From Neptunicella marina (GTDB taxonomy: Bacteria > Pseudomonadota > Gammaproteobacteria > Enterobacterales > Alteromonadaceae): a DNA stretch of 64,000 bases. A program made the position numbers and the translations under genes. The notes beneath the pieces were generated by a model, which was given only the letters and a program-made list of their open reading frames with translations, had not been told where the DNA came from and searched no databases. Below are positions 57,982 to 64,000 of this stretch, piece by piece. The DNA is taken from the NCBI RefSeq assembly GCF_014270035.1, contig NZ_JACNEP010000007.1, positions 1 to 64,000 on the forward strand, given 5' to 3'. Position 1 is the stretch's first letter. Each line of letters begins with the position of its first letter.

Positions 57982-58305
57982 CTAAACTGCAAAAGGATAT
58001 TTAATCGCTTCGTGGTGTTGGTAACCTTCCAACTCAAAATCATCTGTACTTACCCAGCTTTCGATGTCTTCCAGAGATTTAATATCGGGATTGATATGTA
58101 ATTTAGGTGATGGATAGGGCTCACGTTTCAACTGTACCTCTTTCATCAATTCCAGTTGGTTTTCATATATATGTGCATTAACAATTTTATGGTACGCGCG
58201 TCCAGCCTTTAATCCGCTAATTTGTGCCATTAGCGCGAGTAACACAAACACCTGAATTTGATTAAAGTTAAGCCCAAGTGGTTTTATTACCCCAATATAA
58301 TGCAC
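57982..58305 (-). pseudogene. thyA: 3' fragment of a thymidylate synthase gene
   Basis: About 95 residues match the C-terminal part of Thy[53 protein letters not shown] and [20 protein letters not shown], ending at the normal ThyA C-terminus. The catalytic cysteine region and everything before it are absent. The 5' end ([13 protein letters not shown] from a GTG at 58305) has lost similarity, and a stop lies in frame just upstream at 58324-58326. It is therefore a truncated remnant, perhaps left by an insertion or deletion next to the accessory genes. Confidence 0.85.
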
Positions 58306-58680
58306 AATTCGTCTCCATGTAAGCTAAAAATCAACCATGCGGCATTGTGCATTTTCAATTTAAAGGCACTAAAGCTCATAATAGCAACATTCTCTCCTTC
58401 ACCAAAGGTAGAATTTGGAACGGAAATATATTGTGGCTGAATATCTTACTGCTATAGAACTTCTTTGGCATTCTTAAAGCTAATTAGATCAACATTACTT
58501 ATTTCCATTTAACTACCTTACCATCCTAATAAATATCGAAAGCCATTCAGGAACAAGCCTTTGTCCAGATATAAGACCATGTATATCAGTTGTGGTTTAT
58601 TTTACAAGCTTATGCCGTTAGCCTTACCTTAACGACTTCAAAGGTAAGGTTACTTGCCAAGCTAAATTTTTGGACGAAAC
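58306..58680. other. Gene-free stretch between the thyA fragment and the CoiA-like gene
   Basis: No convincing gene is visible in 375 bases. A minus-strand frame of about 50 codons without a good start (58286-58438 region) is open but shows no known similarity. The rest is AT-rich with several stops in all frames. The missing upstream part of thyA is not recognisable here. Confidence 0.5.
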
Positions 58681-59679
58681 ATGGAAAGCCTAAAAGTACC
58701 ATATGGACTTGATGACAAAGATAAACTCATTGCTGCGAATCAAGCACTCAAAGGCGAGAGTTATCGCTGTCCGCAGTGTAAGACCTCACTAGTGTTCAGA
58801 TCTGGTGAACACCGAGCGACTCATTTTGCACATGCGCCTGAGTCACACTGTAGCCTTGAGTCCATTTTACACATAACAGCGAAAGGCTTAATCCTCGAAG
58901 CGATGTCAGCTAACGCTTCCGGCAACGCAGTAATTTGTTTGGAAAATCATTGCGAATGCTGTGGTGTTGTCTTCGCAACTGATTTGCCATCAAAAACGTT
59001 CACTGATGCAAAGGTAGAGGTTAGAGTCGGCGACTTTATCTGTGATGTTGTTGGCTATCGTGGTACGAACGTAGCTTTGGCTGTAGAAATTTTAAATACA
59101 CATTCTGTCGATGCTAAAAAGGCAACTAGTTTAGAGGCCTACTGGGTAGAATTAAAAGCCGAGGATGTTTTGCGAGATCCATTCAAATGGGTTCCAACCC
59201 AAGCTCGACTGAAGAACACCTACTGCACTGATTGCAAGACACATTTAAAGAATGTTGTAAACCTGTGTGAACACTTCAATATCAACAGATCATTATATTC
59301 AGCAATCAAAGATCCAAGGCAAGCTCACTATATTGCCGACATAGAAAAGTGCTTTCGGTGTCACGAGAAAACACCTGTTTTTTGGTGGCATGGCGTACCG
59401 TTCTGCGAAAATGAACCGCCTTCACCTAGACCGACTACGATTCAGTACCGCCACTCAAAAAAATACGGTGGATCATATTGGGCAAACACTTGTGCATACT
59501 GCAACGCGTTACAGGGAGATAATTTCTTGTTCCTATTTGACAATGCTCCGTTCAAAGGTTTACCTCTATCTCACGAGTCGTCAGGCAACAGTCACCAAAC
59601 AGGTAATGTTAAGATAGTCACTGGAAACAATGCTGCGATGTCGGAGATGATGAAAGTGATTAAACGTAACTTTGGGTAA
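58681..59679 (+). CDS. CoiA-like nuclease with zinc-finger domains
   Basis: The 332-residue protein resembles competence protein CoiA. It has an N-terminal zinc ribbon (YRCPQCKTSLVFR with Cys30 and Cys33; THFAH and HC at 47-57). A PD-(D/E)XK-like nuclease core follows, with ICDVVGYRG (Asp122) and ALAVEILNTHSVDAKKATSL (Glu136, then Ser/Lys). Unlike typical CoiA, the C-terminal half adds further CxxC pairs (Cys182/185, Cys224/227, Cys271/274). It is likely a DNA-processing enzyme. Its neighbours are gene fragments and a copper island, so it is probably part of the accessory DNA. Confidence 0.75.
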   Translation: MESLKVPYGLDDKDKLIAANQALKGESYRCPQCKTSLVFRSGEHRATHFAHAPESHCSLESILHITAKGLILEAMSANASGNAVICLENHCECCGVVFATDLPSKTFTDAKVEVRVGDFICDVVGYRGTNVALAVEILNTHSVDAKKATSLEAYWVELKAEDVLRDPFKWVPTQARLKNTYCTDCKTHLKNVVNLCEHFNINRSLYSAIKDPRQAHYIADIEKCFRCHEKTPVFWWHGVPFCENEPPSPRPTTIQYRHSKKYGGSYWANTCAYCNALQGDNFLFLFDNAPFKGLPLSHESSGNSHQTGNVKIVTGNNAAMSEMMKVIKRNFG

Positions 59680-59732
59680 GAGAAAAACGAGATGACAGTA
59701 CCCAACGTGACAGATATGGAATTGAACCTTTG

Positions 59733-59864
59733 GTGAATGAATCTGAAATCTACCAGCGCGTCGGCGAATTCGTTGTTCCGTTTCAATGGATTGAGAACAA
59801 ACTCCGGGAGATGCTGTCACGTTCACTCTTGGCAATGTGCACACTACATATAATCACGGCTTAG
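59733..59864 (+). pseudogene. Truncated N-terminal fragment of an unknown gene
   Basis: From GTG 59733 a 43-codon frame reads NESEIYQRVGEFVVPFQWIE followed by NKLREM. I take this as the start of a longer conserved hypothetical protein. After that point the sequence turns to LSRSLLAMCTLH and stops. The break suggests a junction where foreign DNA begins or a deletion ended. No ribosome binding site decides the start. Confidence 0.5.
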
Positions 59865-60052
59865 ACTTAGATAGAAAGTCAGCGGAACGACTTTTAGAGC
59901 AGCAATCATAACTTGCAAGATAATATTGGTTGTACACCATGCAATTTCCGAAATGAATACACTAACTAATATCGCCATTTTAATATTTATTACATATTCG
60001 CATGTGAGTAAAACAACATGCGTTAGTTGACTACTATTTGTATTATTAGCAA
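59865..60052. other. Short gap between the gene fragment and the copper operon
   Basis: About 190 AT-rich bases follow the truncated fragment. A hydrophobic minus-strand frame of about 44 codons ends at 59844 (ILVSVFISEIAWCTTNIILQ), but it has no ribosome binding site and no recognised similarity. I see no inverted repeat or transposase remnant marking the island border. Confidence 0.4.
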
Positions 60053-60313
60053 TCAACTTTGAAGTTGCATATTGTAAATTTTCGCAATTAGCCAACCCAG
60101 TATACCGGCCAGAAACGCCCACAGAATTCCCGCTATCAGCGCACCAAATATAGACATGTGCCATCCCATGCCTTTCCAGTCTGTGTGCAACATATTGCCC
60201 GTCATATCTGACATCATGTCTGGCAAAGCAATTACGAGTAGGGAACAGATAATCCATATAAGGCCAAACGCTGTCGCACAAGCGACGGCAAAGGCATTTT
60301 CACGAATTTTCAT
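60053..60313 (-). CDS. DUF5676 family membrane protein
   Basis: The 86-residue inner-membrane protein has two helices (AVACATAFGLIWIICSLLVIAL and IFGALIAGILWAFLAGILGW) and matches DUF5676. ATG 60313 follows AAAGGAGAT, an excellent ribosome binding site, so the upstream extension is rejected. It is the last gene of the copper operon. DUF5676 genes often accompany copper and heavy-metal resistance genes; the role is unknown. Confidence 0.85.
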   Translation of the reverse strand: MKIRENAFAVACATAFGLIWIICSLLVIALPDMMSDMTGNMLHTDWKGMGWHMSIFGALIAGILWAFLAGILGWLIAKIYNMQLQS

Positions 60314-60341
60314 ATTACATCTCCTTTGGCTATAGAATAGC

Positions 60342-60367
60342 CTCACTCAGAGTTAATTCTGAGTGAG
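60342..60367. repeat. Hairpin between the HMA-like and DUF5676 genes
   Basis: CTCACTCAGA and TCTGAGTGAG form a perfect 10-bp stem with a 6-base loop. There is no T run on the minus strand, so it may stabilise the upstream mRNA or attenuate the last gene. Confidence 0.55.
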
Positions 60368-60391
60368 ATTGCACAATGTCTTAAGCTAATT

Positions 60392-60760
60392 TTACTTCTT
60401 CTTGTGAGACCCTTGCGGCACCGTGTGGCAACTCCACGCTTTGTGTGTTGCATTGTCCTTCACATTCTGATCGACAAATTGATAGTAACCTTCCTTCGTA
60501 TGAGTCCACCAATCGTTATGAAGGTCAGCCCCATGTTTGCGAATGACTTCTTCAATACCATCCAGATTGATATGTGTCGCATCATATGCCAAGTGAATAG
60601 CACCTTCTTTGATGTTATAGCTGACGTCATCAATTCCAAAAAGCTTATCAATATCTTCAATTAGGGCATCACAATTACTCTCGTTTACATTGCTGAGCCT
60701 TAAGTTTCGAACTACTAAATTAGCTTCTCGTACACCAACTCTGTGATCTAAATCACTCAT
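60392..60760 (-). CDS. HMA-like (ferredoxin-fold) protein without CxxC
   Basis: The 122-residue protein has a heavy-metal-associated-type fold. ANLVVRNLRLSNVNESNCDALIEDI and GIDDVSYNIKEGAIHLAYDA are typical beta-alpha-beta segments. The CxxC metal loop is replaced by SNVNESNC with a single cysteine. The tail is His- and Lys-rich (TVPQGSHKKK) and has a second cysteine. GGAGG precedes the ATG. It probably handles copper or a redox partner; metal binding is uncertain. Confidence 0.75.
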   Translation of the reverse strand: MSDLDHRVGVREANLVVRNLRLSNVNESNCDALIEDIDKLFGIDDVSYNIKEGAIHLAYDATHINLDGIEEVIRKHGADLHNDWWTHTKEGYYQFVDQNVKDNATHKAWSCHTVPQGSHKKK

Positions 60761-60777
60761 GTTTGCCTCCAGTAATT

Positions 60778-61188
60778 TTAGTTTGAATGTTTCTCAGACA
60801 TGGATGAATGTTCGCCATCCATTTGTGACATCATCATTTCCATCATTTTGAGATGTTTATCTGCCATCTCAATTTGGCTACGCATAGATTGCCCTTCCAT
60901 TTTCTCGTGCATCATTTGCATCATACCCATCATGGTTTGCATGTGGCTTTTCATCATTTCGTGCTGCTTCTGCGGGTCTTTCTCCGCTTTTATCGCTTCA
61001 ATCTCCTCCTTCATTGCCATCATTTTTGCATTCATCATATGCATATCATTTCCAGACTTGTTCATTCCCATTTTCATATCAGATTTATCTGAATGTTGGT
61101 GTTCATGTCCTTCTATACTTTGGGCTGAAGCTGTTGCCGCCATTAGTATAGACGTTGAAAAAATGAGTGATTTAATGAGTGTTTTCAT
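60778..61188 (-). CDS. Methionine- and histidine-rich periplasmic protein
   Basis: The protein of about 136 residues has a signal peptide ending TASA. The mature part is extremely Met- and His-rich (EGHEHQHSDKSDMKMGMNKS, then MMGMMQMMHEKMEG and MMEMMMSQMDG). Such sequences bind Cu(I) through methionine thioethers in CopC/PcoE-like proteins. ATG 61188 follows AAGGT at a good distance; the frame from 61203 uses a TTG. It sits within the copper operon and is a likely periplasmic copper sponge. Confidence 0.85.
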   Translation of the reverse strand: MKTLIKSLIFSTSILMAATASAQSIEGHEHQHSDKSDMKMGMNKSGNDMHMMNAKMMAMKEEIEAIKAEKDPQKQHEMMKSHMQTMMGMMQMMHEKMEGQSMRSQIEMADKHLKMMEMMMSQMDGEHSSMSEKHSN

Positions 61189-61837
61189 TATTTTTACCTT
61201 CAAAATTAACGTTCAGGTTTGGAATCCAGCTTGGTGTAGTTTTGATATAATTCATATACAGCTCGCCAAATTCAGAAATAGCTAAAGCTTCTTCGCGCTT
61301 AGCCAGTTTTACGTACACAACAACTAAAATTGGAAACATGACTAATGTAGGGATGGTCGGCCACTGCAACAAAAAACCGAACATGATCAGAATAAATGCT
61401 AGATATTGAGGATGGCGACAACGTGCATACCATCCTGTAGTCGCCAATTGTCGGTTTTTCTGGGCATGGTGCAGTACATTCCACGCTGAAGACAAAATAA
61501 AGAAACCTGCAACAATAAACACCATACTGGCGACATGAAATGGGTCCCAATGTGCATCGCCCTTAAGCCCGAAAAAAGTATGAAGCAAATGTCCGTTTTC
61601 GTGCGAGTAAAAATTAATGTTTGGGTAATGTTCTGTCAGCCAACCGGACAGCAAATATATCGTCAATGGGAATCCATACATTTCAGTAAACAGAGCTACA
61701 ATGAATGCAGAAAAAACGCCCAGACTTCGCCAATCCGTCTTCGTCTTTGGCTTTACAAAGCTAAATGCAAAAAAGATGAAAATAGCTGAATTAAGAAATA
61801 CGAGGGACCAAAGTCCATAATCAGAGGCTTCATTCAT
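61172..61837 (-). CDS. Isoprenylcysteine methyltransferase-like membrane protein
   Basis: This polytopic protein of about 221 residues has the ICMT/PEMT-type motif YARCRHPQYLAFILIMFGF and the late REEALAISEFGELYMNY. Several hydrophobic helices precede it. ATG 61837 follows AAGGAGA and overlaps the DUF2933 gene. Members of this family occur in metal-resistance gene sets, but the substrate is unknown. Confidence 0.85.
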   Translation of the reverse strand: MNEASDYGLWSLVFLNSAIFIFFAFSFVKPKTKTDWRSLGVFSAFIVALFTEMYGFPLTIYLLSGWLTEHYPNINFYSHENGHLLHTFFGLKGDAHWDPFHVASMVFIVAGFFILSSAWNVLHHAQKNRQLATTGWYARCRHPQYLAFILIMFGFLLQWPTIPTLVMFPILVVVYVKLAKREEALAISEFGELYMNYIKTTPSWIPNLNVNFEGKNNENTH

Positions 61838-62162
61838 GATCTTTCTCCTTTCCATGCGCTTCTTTTCGCCCTTCCTCTAATCCCTGAATGTATCCATCAC
61901 GATAAGCAGCATTTTTATCGCTCAATTCCTGAAAACTCTCCTGCTTAGTTTCACCGTCAGGAGAGTGGTCGTGTCCGTGTTTACCGTGGCTGCCATGCAT
62001 GAACATATGCATGAAAGGGCACATCAGTAATATCAGATAAGGGAGAAACTGGAGAACATGATGACCATGTTCAAAGATTAAGAAATAAGTTGCAGCAGCT
62101 ATAATTGCCAATGCTGCCCAGCCAGTGGGGGTTGACCAAAATTTGGGATGACTATTCTTCAT
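61830..62162 (-). CDS. DUF2933 family small membrane protein
   Basis: The 110-residue protein has two helices (AALAIIAAATYFLIF and VLQFLPYLILLMCPFMHMFM) and His/Met-rich segments (HGSHGKHGHDHS), as in the DUF2933 family. It ends in a polar, glutamate- and lysine-rich tail. GGAGG precedes the ATG, which overlaps the PII-like gene. The His-rich loop suggests metal binding, by inference. Confidence 0.85.
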   Translation of the reverse strand: MKNSHPKFWSTPTGWAALAIIAAATYFLIFEHGHHVLQFLPYLILLMCPFMHMFMHGSHGKHGHDHSPDGETKQESFQELSDKNAAYRDGYIQGLEEGRKEAHGKEKDHE

Positions 62163-62505
62163 AGCTCCTCCCGGTAGATCTTAAATCGTCACTGGAAACT
62201 TCTGCTTTTGAGTTAATCCAATAGAGCTTCTCTACTGGTGAGATACTTACAATCCCTTCACCTTCAACATTCGTATGTGCTGCGTTGAGTAAGATGTCTG
62301 CGACATATTCAACATCTCTTTTATCCACATAAATTGTCATCACAATATGTTCGGACAGATGATTGCGATTGTATGTATCTGCATAAGCACCACGCCCGGC
62401 AGCTTTATATAAGGTAAACCCCTTGTAGCCGTTCGACAGCAATGCTTCTTCTACTTGGGGTAGCACCAATTCATCAAACGTGGCTGTAATTTGTCTAATA
62501 TTCAT
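62152..62505 (-). CDS. PII-like nitrogen regulator family protein
   Basis: The 117-residue protein has the PII ferredoxin-like fold. The N-terminal MNIRQITATFDELVLPQVEE, the T-loop-like region GRGAYADTYNRNHLSEHIVM and the B-loop-like VEGEGIVSISPVEKLYW are visible. The canonical uridylylation tyrosine is not clearly placed. It sits between cupredoxin and DUF2933 in the copper operon, so it is a metal-associated PII-like protein rather than GlnB. Confidence 0.85.
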   Translation of the reverse strand: MNIRQITATFDELVLPQVEEALLSNGYKGFTLYKAAGRGAYADTYNRNHLSEHIVMTIYVDKRDVEYVADILLNAAHTNVEGEGIVSISPVEKLYWINSKAEVSSDDLRSTGRSYEE

Positions 62506-62513
62506 AATGCCTC

Positions 62514-62867
62514 CTACACCACCTTGAGAACACCGCGATACATCTGCATTTGGCAGTGAAAGACATGTTCGCCCTGTGGAATATCTGAGAGGTGAATTTG
62601 CGTCACATCATTAAGTTTCAATTGCTCACTGATATCTAATGTGGGAATAAGTAGCGTCTCAGAACATGGCGATTGATCTTTCCGCAAAAACTTCAATGTT
62701 ATGGGTTGGCTTGCGTTTACTTGAATTGCTGACGGTGAATACACGCCATCTTTTACTTCTATTAGCACTTCATTATTATTAGCCAACGTTTGATTAGGTT
62801 TGTACAGCCAAAACCACCAAATAATCAGTGCTATAATGGCAATACCAAAAATATTAAAAATCATCAT
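62514..62867 (-). CDS. Membrane-anchored cupredoxin-domain protein
   Basis: The 117-residue protein has an N-terminal helix (IFNIFGIAIIALIIWWFW) and a cupredoxin-like domain. The copper-site segments are SPCSETLLIPTL and GEHVFHCQMQMYRGVLKVV, with Cys, His and Met ligands. It should face the periplasm and bind copper. AGGAGA precedes the ATG. It lies directly after copA. Confidence 0.87.
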   Translation of the reverse strand: MMIFNIFGIAIIALIIWWFWLYKPNQTLANNNEVLIEVKDGVYSPSAIQVNASQPITLKFLRKDQSPCSETLLIPTLDISEQLKLNDVTQIHLSDIPQGEHVFHCQMQMYRGVLKVV

Positions 62868-62878
62868 AAAATTTCTCC

Positions 62879-64000
62879 TTAATGGTCCTGAGCCTTGAAT
62901 AAGCGAAGCCGATTTGCATTCGACACAACAGTCAACGAAGAAAATGCCATAGCGGCCCCAGCAATGACCGGGCTTAATAGCAAACCAAAAAATGGATAGA
63001 GCACGCCAGCAGCGAAAGGAATACCAGCCACGTTATAAACAAACGCACCAAACAGATTTTGTTTAATATTGCGCAATGTTGCTTTACTAACAGCAATTGC
63101 ATCTGCCAAGCCATGTAGAGAGCCGCGCATAAGGGTGATATCTGCACTTTCAATCGCAACATCTGTACCTGTTCCTATGGCAAAGCCAACGTCTGCCAAC
63201 GCAAGCGCCGGGGCATCATTAATCCCATCCCCCGTCATGCCTACTATTTCTCCCTGCTCCTGAAGTTCCTGCACTTTGTTGGCTTTGTCTTCGGGCAATA
63301 CTTCAGCAAAAAATTCGCTTATCCCCGCTTTATTTGCCACCGCTGCGGCAGTTTCTTTATTGTCACCTGTTAACATGATGACTCGGATACCATTGGCTTG
63401 CAGGCGTTTGATGGCAGAAATGGAGTCTGATTTTATCGGATCGGCCACTGCAATGATGGCTGCCAGTTGTCCATCTACTGCGAAATACATCGGGGTTTTG
63501 GCTTCTTTGGCCAGAGCTTGTGCTTTATCGGTGTACTTGCCTAAGTCCACCTGTTTTTTTGCCATGAGCTTGCTGTTACCAAACAACAAGGCTTTTCCAT
63601 CACAACTGGCTTCGACTCCCATACCCGTAATGGCATTAAATGCCTCAATCTTAAGCAGCTCGATATCTTGCTCTAAGGCACTTTCCACTATCGCCATAGC
63701 CAAAGGGTGTTCGGAACCACTTTCCAGACTGGCAGCCAGTTGCAGCACCGTATTTTCATCACTGGCATTAGCTAAAATAATGTCAGTGACTTTGGGTGTA
63801 CCTTCCGTAATCGTCCCGGTTTTATCCAGTATCATCGCAGTGATTTTTGATGCAGTTTGTAGCGCTTCGCCATTGCGAATAAGCACGCCCGCTTCAGCGG
63901 CCTTGCCAACCCCCACCATCACTGACATCGGCGTGGCCAAGCCTAATGCACATGGGCAGGCAATTATCAGTACTGTGGTTGCTGAAACGATAGCAAATGC
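62879..64000 (-). CDS. copA: Copper-translocating P-type ATPase CopA, C-terminal part
   Basis: The frame runs off the right edge; 373 codons of the C-terminal half are visible. They begin within helix 6 with the [10 protein letters not shown] metal site. The phosphorylation motif [15 protein letters not shown] and GDGINDAP follow. The last two helices carry YN and MAFSS, the Cu(I) signature of P1B-1 ATPases. The enzyme exports cytoplasmic Cu(I). It is the first visible gene of the copper operon; the N-terminal metal domains and any CueR gene lie outside. Confidence 0.96.

Follow-up and report, generated by a model that had tools for sequence, protein, structure and literature searches.

The CoiA family is described by two Pfam models, CoiA_N (PF25164) and CoiA_nuc (PF06054), its members being known as nucleases or recombination helpers rather than repressors, while nuclease cores of the PD-(D/E)XK type carry the signature D ... 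E-x-K/Q. CoiA-domain proteins bear a 'competence' label and are therefore easily overlooked in defence annotation. In its account of E. coli anti-phage systems found by selection for phage defence, one study names a CoiA-domain protein (Vassallo et al. 2022, PMC9519451), to which the protein described here can be likened by domain name. Gabija, in turn, is recognised by GajA together with GajB, and no paper naming 'Gabija' and 'CoiA' together was found in the open-access collection searched. As for carriers, GInt elements and the strand-biased circularizing integrative elements (SE) are described as having an ordered set of four recombination genes, a 6-bp site and inverted ends (PMC5385486, PMC10214605), which in the SE paper measure 13–19 bp (PMC10214605). 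The main text of neither paper mentions thyA, and searches of the same open-access collection gave no element that lies in thyA and supplies a substitute copy.

The window, that is, the whole stretch of 64,000 nucleotides of Neptunicella marina analysed here, touches all three of these systems. Of a broken cassette with Gabija genes, a CoiA-like gene alone survives whole, and the scar of thyA beside it marks where a GInt/SE-like element, which brought its own thyA, has one of its ends. The features are collected in Table 1.

Table 1. Features of the CoiA-like locus and of the element that carries it (window positions unless a contig is named)
Feature	Position	Strand	Remarks
Host thyA, 3' part	about 57982-58281	-	about the last 98 codons; Pfam Thymidylat_synt, E=4e-26; 57985-58278 in the genome search
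13-bp terminal inverted repeat, right end	58282-58294		other end at about 94058-94070, contig C44
GInt/SE-like element, part in the window	58282-64000		continues to about 94068 of contig C44
gajA, first eight codons	58484-58507	-	leftmost cassette homology; frame decayed past this point
gajA/coiA intergenic region	58515-58652		three copies of an 8-mer
8-mer copies	58515-58522; two within inverted repeat 58619-58630 / 58641-58652		sequence comparison
CoiA-like protein, ORF	58681-59679	+	ATG start, 332 aa
175-aa HEPN-like gene, first ~27 codons	59733-59812	+	right limit of cassette homology; cut off
Host thyA, 5' part	C44:94039-94623		genome search
Intact second thyA	C44:86987-87811		genome search

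The CoiA-like gene

The 332-aa protein matched Pfam CoiA_N over residues 21–59 (E=2.2e-11), its 43.5 bits lying above the curated cut-off of 26.3, which by the ribbon criterion places it in the CoiA family. It holds five CxxC pairs, starting at residues 30, 91, 182, 224 and 271, so that both the CoiA-type zinc ribbon and the at least three further pairs in the C-terminal half (182, 224 and 271) that a sequence-only reading had described are confirmed. The ten cysteines of these pairs, together with D122 and E136, are invariant in alignment A2 (five rows, the window protein and four relatives). Unlike the CoiA family in general, the protein has the further pairs at 91 and 182 and keeps no company with competence genes.

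The genome scan gave two loci, those of Alteromonadaceae bacterium XY-R5 (L008, 95%) and Alteromonas lipotrueiana (L009, 92%), from which the gene differs at codon positions 1/2/3 by 10/7/37 and 17/10/53 changes, with dN/dS values of 0.118 and 0.150, respectively. A chance ORF is excluded by these differences and by the low dN/dS, the gene being under purifying selection. The 31 changes on the window branch comprised 23 synonymous and 8 non-synonymous ones, compared with a neutral expectation of 77% (equal rates) or 71% (kappa 4) for the non-synonymous share of non-stop changes, and this signal may date from before the loss of gajAB; on the other branches, 10 of 22 (XY-R5) and 21 of 46 (A. lipotrueiana) changes were non-synonymous.

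Searches with the protein in NCBIfam and PHROGs gave nothing useful, and the PDB sequence matches (all at E≥0.046) were judged to be due to chance. The PADLOC scan gave a match to Druantia DruB1 that was confined to the N-terminal part (E=1.9e-6). Sites resembling promoters or terminators did not outnumber those of shuffled sequences. A phage origin was also considered and rejected, tblastn against 50,697 phage records giving no match and viral contigs yielding no relative with the queries P0001, A2, L010 and L012.

The nuclease core

The sequence-only reading had credited the protein with a nuclease core, and this holds in part. The order of its conserved residues, D followed by E, fits a PD-(D/E)XK core, as in the CoiA family, and D122 and E136 are invariant in the eight rows of alignment A1; nevertheless, CoiA_nuc was not among the Pfam matches of the protein at E≤1 (nor found in its own genome, G000, at E≤0.001), and the E-x-K/Q signature is absent, so that the E-x-K active site, whose absence was to count against that reading, is not kept at the sequence level. 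In the place of the E-x-Q of the family stands the motif E-I-x-x-T-H...K, the residues of the core being D122, E136, H141 and K147. The readable rows without CoiA_nuc number 18, the window included (the short or wrong frames L006, L007 and L018 being excluded, L076, the proper frame of L018, lying outside the counts, and L045 being read from upstream of its annotated start). The residue at E136+2 is L, F, V, I, Y, A or C in 15 of these rows and R or H in three, Q at E+2 being found only in the CoiA_nuc protein L041, while His stands at E136+5 in 15 of the 18 and Lys at the K147 column (E136+11) in 12, with L003, L012–L014, L017 and L019 lacking it. H141 and K147 might be replacing the canonical Lys/Gln. 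The AlphaFold model, run with three input sequences, had a mean pLDDT of 32.7, too low for use, and the nuclease activity of the protein is unproven.

The last two CxxC pairs together make up a module that closes with N-x-C-x-x-C-x-x-x-x-G-D/N. A profile built from seven copies gave whole-sequence scores of 40.6 bits with L041 and 35.9 bits with the DUF5710 protein of R721 (35.4 and 25.4 bits for the best single stretch), the top score among the controls, 200 shuffles for each of seven targets, being 7.7. The Deinococcus radiophilus relative scored 4.8, inside the control range, and the other Deinococcus and the Acinetobacter relatives had no outstanding score among the matches listed; tblastn in plasmids reached E. 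coli DUF5710 proteins at a non-significant E of ~0.4–1. On profile scores, the module is common to some CoiA and DUF5710 proteins, L041 having the same one as the window protein. Since it occurs beyond the window family, the module alone marks no new subtype, which weakens the earlier proposal of one. The R721 protein is encoded among conjugation genes (L039 2009–2818) of a conjugative E. coli plasmid.

The Gabija-containing cassette and its remnant

The intact cassette of XY-R5 and A. lipotrueiana spans ~5.5 kb and consists of gajB-gajA, a divergent coiA and a 175-aa gene with a HEPN-like motif. The two loci have a single block in common (4518 to about 10007; 94% identical nucleotides), and the fact that they are similar nowhere else, at E≤1e-5, suggests that the cassette moves as a unit. 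In A. lipotrueiana, GajB (536 aa; PADLOC 644 bits) and GajA (566 aa; 825 bits), the latter matching solved GajA chains such as 8jq9, are encoded on one strand, and coiA, the 175-aa gene and a 63-codon ORF on the opposite one. Outside the block, PADLOC returned MkoC (915 bits) in XY-R5 and dGTPase (214 bits) in A. lipotrueiana. The HEPN motif is Rx4-6H in a helical fold, and the 175-aa protein has RNRVLH, with an AlphaFold pLDDT of 42.4; it had no Pfam or NCBIfam match and none in plasmids or viral contigs.

The window retains the inner part of this block only, BLASTN homology running from 58484 to 59812 (1,329 bp), and no further piece turned up when the genome was searched at the DNA level with the block as query. 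The limits of the deletion are observed directly: gajB is missing altogether, while gajA is reduced to its opening codons and the 175-aa gene to about 27 codons. By the criterion of GajA plus GajB, Gabija is present in A. lipotrueiana and absent from the window, and neither CoiA nor the 175-aa protein is a Gabija subunit. The flanks named in the sequence-only reading, a thyA scar and a downstream gene fragment, proved to be right. The isolation of the gene, which it had also stressed, holds for the present locus, where no competence genes were recognised nearby, but only at present, since the two relatives carry it in the cassette. The XY-R5 coiA (L008 8001–8996) has an in-frame stop at codon 273, with gajAB open.

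CoiA as a general subunit of Gabija was ruled out, CoiA being found in none of six other Gabija loci; this check covered six of the seven matched genomes, G222 (a partial match) and 73 plasmid records with GajA-like proteins being excluded. The tie to Gabija is therefore one cassette lineage plus one loose case, and naming the window protein a Gabija component is not justified.

The element in thyA

The carrier is ~35.8 kb long and ends in the 13-bp inverted repeat, a length found also in the SE paper (PMC10214605), and a 6-bp repeat. When the two parts of the host thyA are joined at the 6-bp repeat, one open thyA of 283 codons results. The far end bears three Phage_integrase-fold genes (409, 779 and 689 aa), all of which pass the Pfam cut-off, the 689-aa one narrowly, and then a 166-aa gene, called srap-like from its position and size alone (no srap model was used), after which comes the second thyA, 28% identical to the host one. 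A four-gene module at one end, inverted ends and a short junction repeat are thus all present, as in GInt/SE elements, from which this one differs by sitting inside thyA and carrying a replacement. The Gamma-Mobile-Trio was a further candidate element type.

The 779-aa (Tfp-like) protein was found at E≤1e-60 in 5 of 394 genomes of the order, its own included, and all five have a partial thyA just past intA and an intact thyA after the fourth gene. G000, G001 (on two contigs) and G470 showed both host parts, G013 and G324 one, the ends of the element being mapped in G000 alone. A CoiA-like cargo was present in two of the five (that of G001, G013 and G324 was read in part), the second case being G470 (L070 6388–15224), where a compact thyA element of ~9 kb has one 530-aa CoiA-like protein as its main cargo. 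The thyA-splitting elements with a replacement thyA are those at contig C44 58282–94068, L067, L068, L069 and L070. In L070 the two classes are swapped: its host thyA pieces are similar to the window genome's island ThyA (55–60%) and its replacement ThyA to the window's host ThyA (72%).

Relatives and their neighbourhoods

Full-length relatives are rare: matches were obtained in 7 of 196, 3 of 394 and 2 of 398 genomes, own genome included, and in those sets the only full-length match beyond the own genome was in G016. The neighbourhoods were taken as returned by the searches and number 18: the cassette (L008 and L009 counting as one), ten plasmid loci (L010–L015 and L044–L047) and seven genome loci (L070–L076), with L006, L007, L048, H10, H12, H119, L040, L042 and L043 not included. 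Defence genes were found in seven of them, in two by annotation alone or mainly, a count that is neither complete nor a test, because the scan took in selected neighbours only, with no random background. Besides the Gabija of the cassette (PADLOC), these are a PD-Lambda-3_B/Aga_HEPN-like protein at a Massilia plasmid locus (E=1.6e-18); type I RM in Nostoc, by annotation only; McrBC in Acinetobacter, annotated, with an AAA protein matching the PD-T4-1 and REase_II models, PADLOC not naming McrC among these neighbours; McrBC in G190 (Pfam E=1.6e-106); in G501, ~3 kb from a different CoiA-like gene (L073 1827–8587), a Gabija that is of another subtype (GajA, 1005 bits); and HsdM (907 bits) with PDC-S02 (514 bits) in G035 (PADLOC). 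Furthermore, the CoiA-like gene overlaps a UvrD/GajB-like helicase gene in D. radiophilus (L015 1841–4119) and in G171 (L075 5894–8928), lying once after and once before it.

Three of the five plasmid homologues with a query coverage of 80% or more (Marinobacter, Pseudoalteromonas and Calothrix) had no recognised defence neighbour, the DUF1778-GNAT pair adjoining the Marinobacter gene not being counted as defence. No housekeeping operon, the finding that was to speak against a defence role, was found around the gene.

Proposed role and alternatives

The gene, a leftover of the cassette in the thyA element, on balance probably encodes a nucleic-acid-binding accessory protein of defence against phages or plasmids. 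According to this reading, gajB-gajA, the divergent coiA and the HEPN-like gene would have been mobile cargo close to an end of the GInt/SE-like element, which would have inserted into the host thyA while supplying a replacement; the loss of gajAB and most of the 175-aa gene would have left coiA alone. The zinc ribbons of the protein would bind DNA, and its restriction-endonuclease-like core, with a non-canonical site, would either cut DNA or only hold it. The defence part of this is favoured by the cassette with Gabija, by the seven neighbourhoods with defence genes by the second, different Gabija of G501 and by the CoiA-domain protein named among the E. coli anti-phage systems (PMC9519451), and the 530-aa cargo of the related thyA element speaks for defence or a mobile-element role. 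Against the defence part stand the six Gabija loci without CoiA, the three plasmid homologues without a defence neighbour, the lost E-x-K/Q signature and the broken coiA of XY-R5 beside an open gajAB. The defence or mobile-element nuclease of the sequence-only reading is supported by context as far as its role is concerned, but is unproven as a nuclease. The sequence of the gene, the selection on it, the cassette of the two relatives, the extent of the deletion and the ends of the element are observed, and zinc binding, DNA binding, catalysis and the part played in defence are what we infer.

A bolder version of the same idea, which we consider unlikely, makes the intact cassette an extended variant of Gabija: the CoiA-like protein with its five Cys pairs would be a component dedicated to it, its PD-(D/E)XK site being rearranged (D, E, T-H and a later Lys), and its clade a roaming effector that rides on thyA-targeting elements and has joined defences repeatedly, namely Gabija twice, McrBC twice and UvrD-coupled genes twice.

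Alternatively, and with a similarly small chance, the protein could serve the upkeep of plasmids or mobile elements, handling the element's own DNA in replication, partition, transfer or repair, with no relation to phage. In fact, two of the three plasmid homologues without a defence neighbour lie near parAB, accompanied by TraM-like genes in Marinobacter and umuDC-like genes in Pseudoalteromonas, dnaB lies near the Massilia homologue and parA near the Nostoc one, two relatives overlap a UvrD-helicase gene, and the C-terminal Cys module recurs among the conjugation genes of R721. Nevertheless, the nearest relatives are in a Gabija cassette, defence genes occur in 7 of the 18 neighbourhoods, and the module is absent from, or undetected in, the Deinococcus and Acinetobacter relatives.

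That the gene is an inert leftover, its role gone with gajAB and its frame slowly decaying, is quite improbable. Such a fate would agree with the disappearance of gajAB and the greater part of the 175-aa gene and with the stop in the XY-R5 coiA, but the frame in the window is intact and the 8 non-synonymous changes in 31 on its branch fall well short of the neutral 71–77%.

Even less probable is a regulator of the cassette, in which a protein with a dead nuclease core would bind the repeated 8-mer between gajA and coiA and control both. The two genes are divergent, the three 8-mers, two of them in the inverted repeat, are kept in all three loci (the repeat being 83% and 90% complementary in XY-R5 and A. 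lipotrueiana), and the canonical catalytic Lys/Gln is missing. However, the intergenic identity among the three loci is 92–97%, which leaves little time for repeats to decay and makes them a weak sign of function; moreover, six other Gabija loci manage without CoiA, and the relatives of CoiA are not known as repressors.

An ordinary competence protein CoiA is almost certainly not the answer, since the CoiA_N ribbon and the RefSeq label of the relatives ('competence protein CoiA family protein') are set against a missing CoiA_nuc match, the lack of recognised competence genes nearby and a near-full-length copy in only 2 of 196 related genomes, own included.

With the accessory of defence as the preferred reading, this locus, taken together with those of its relatives, points to a zinc-rich clade of CoiA-like proteins whose genes are carried by mobile elements in the company of Gabija and further defence genes. 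Its carrier here is an island that splits thyA while supplying a copy of its own, a pattern seen in every one of the five genomes with the recombination protein. The same element also has a metal-handling cargo, which comprises, at window positions 60053–64000, DUF5676, a weak HMA match and a cupredoxin (Pfam), with P-type ATPase- and RND-like ORFs, recognised by eye, further along the contig.
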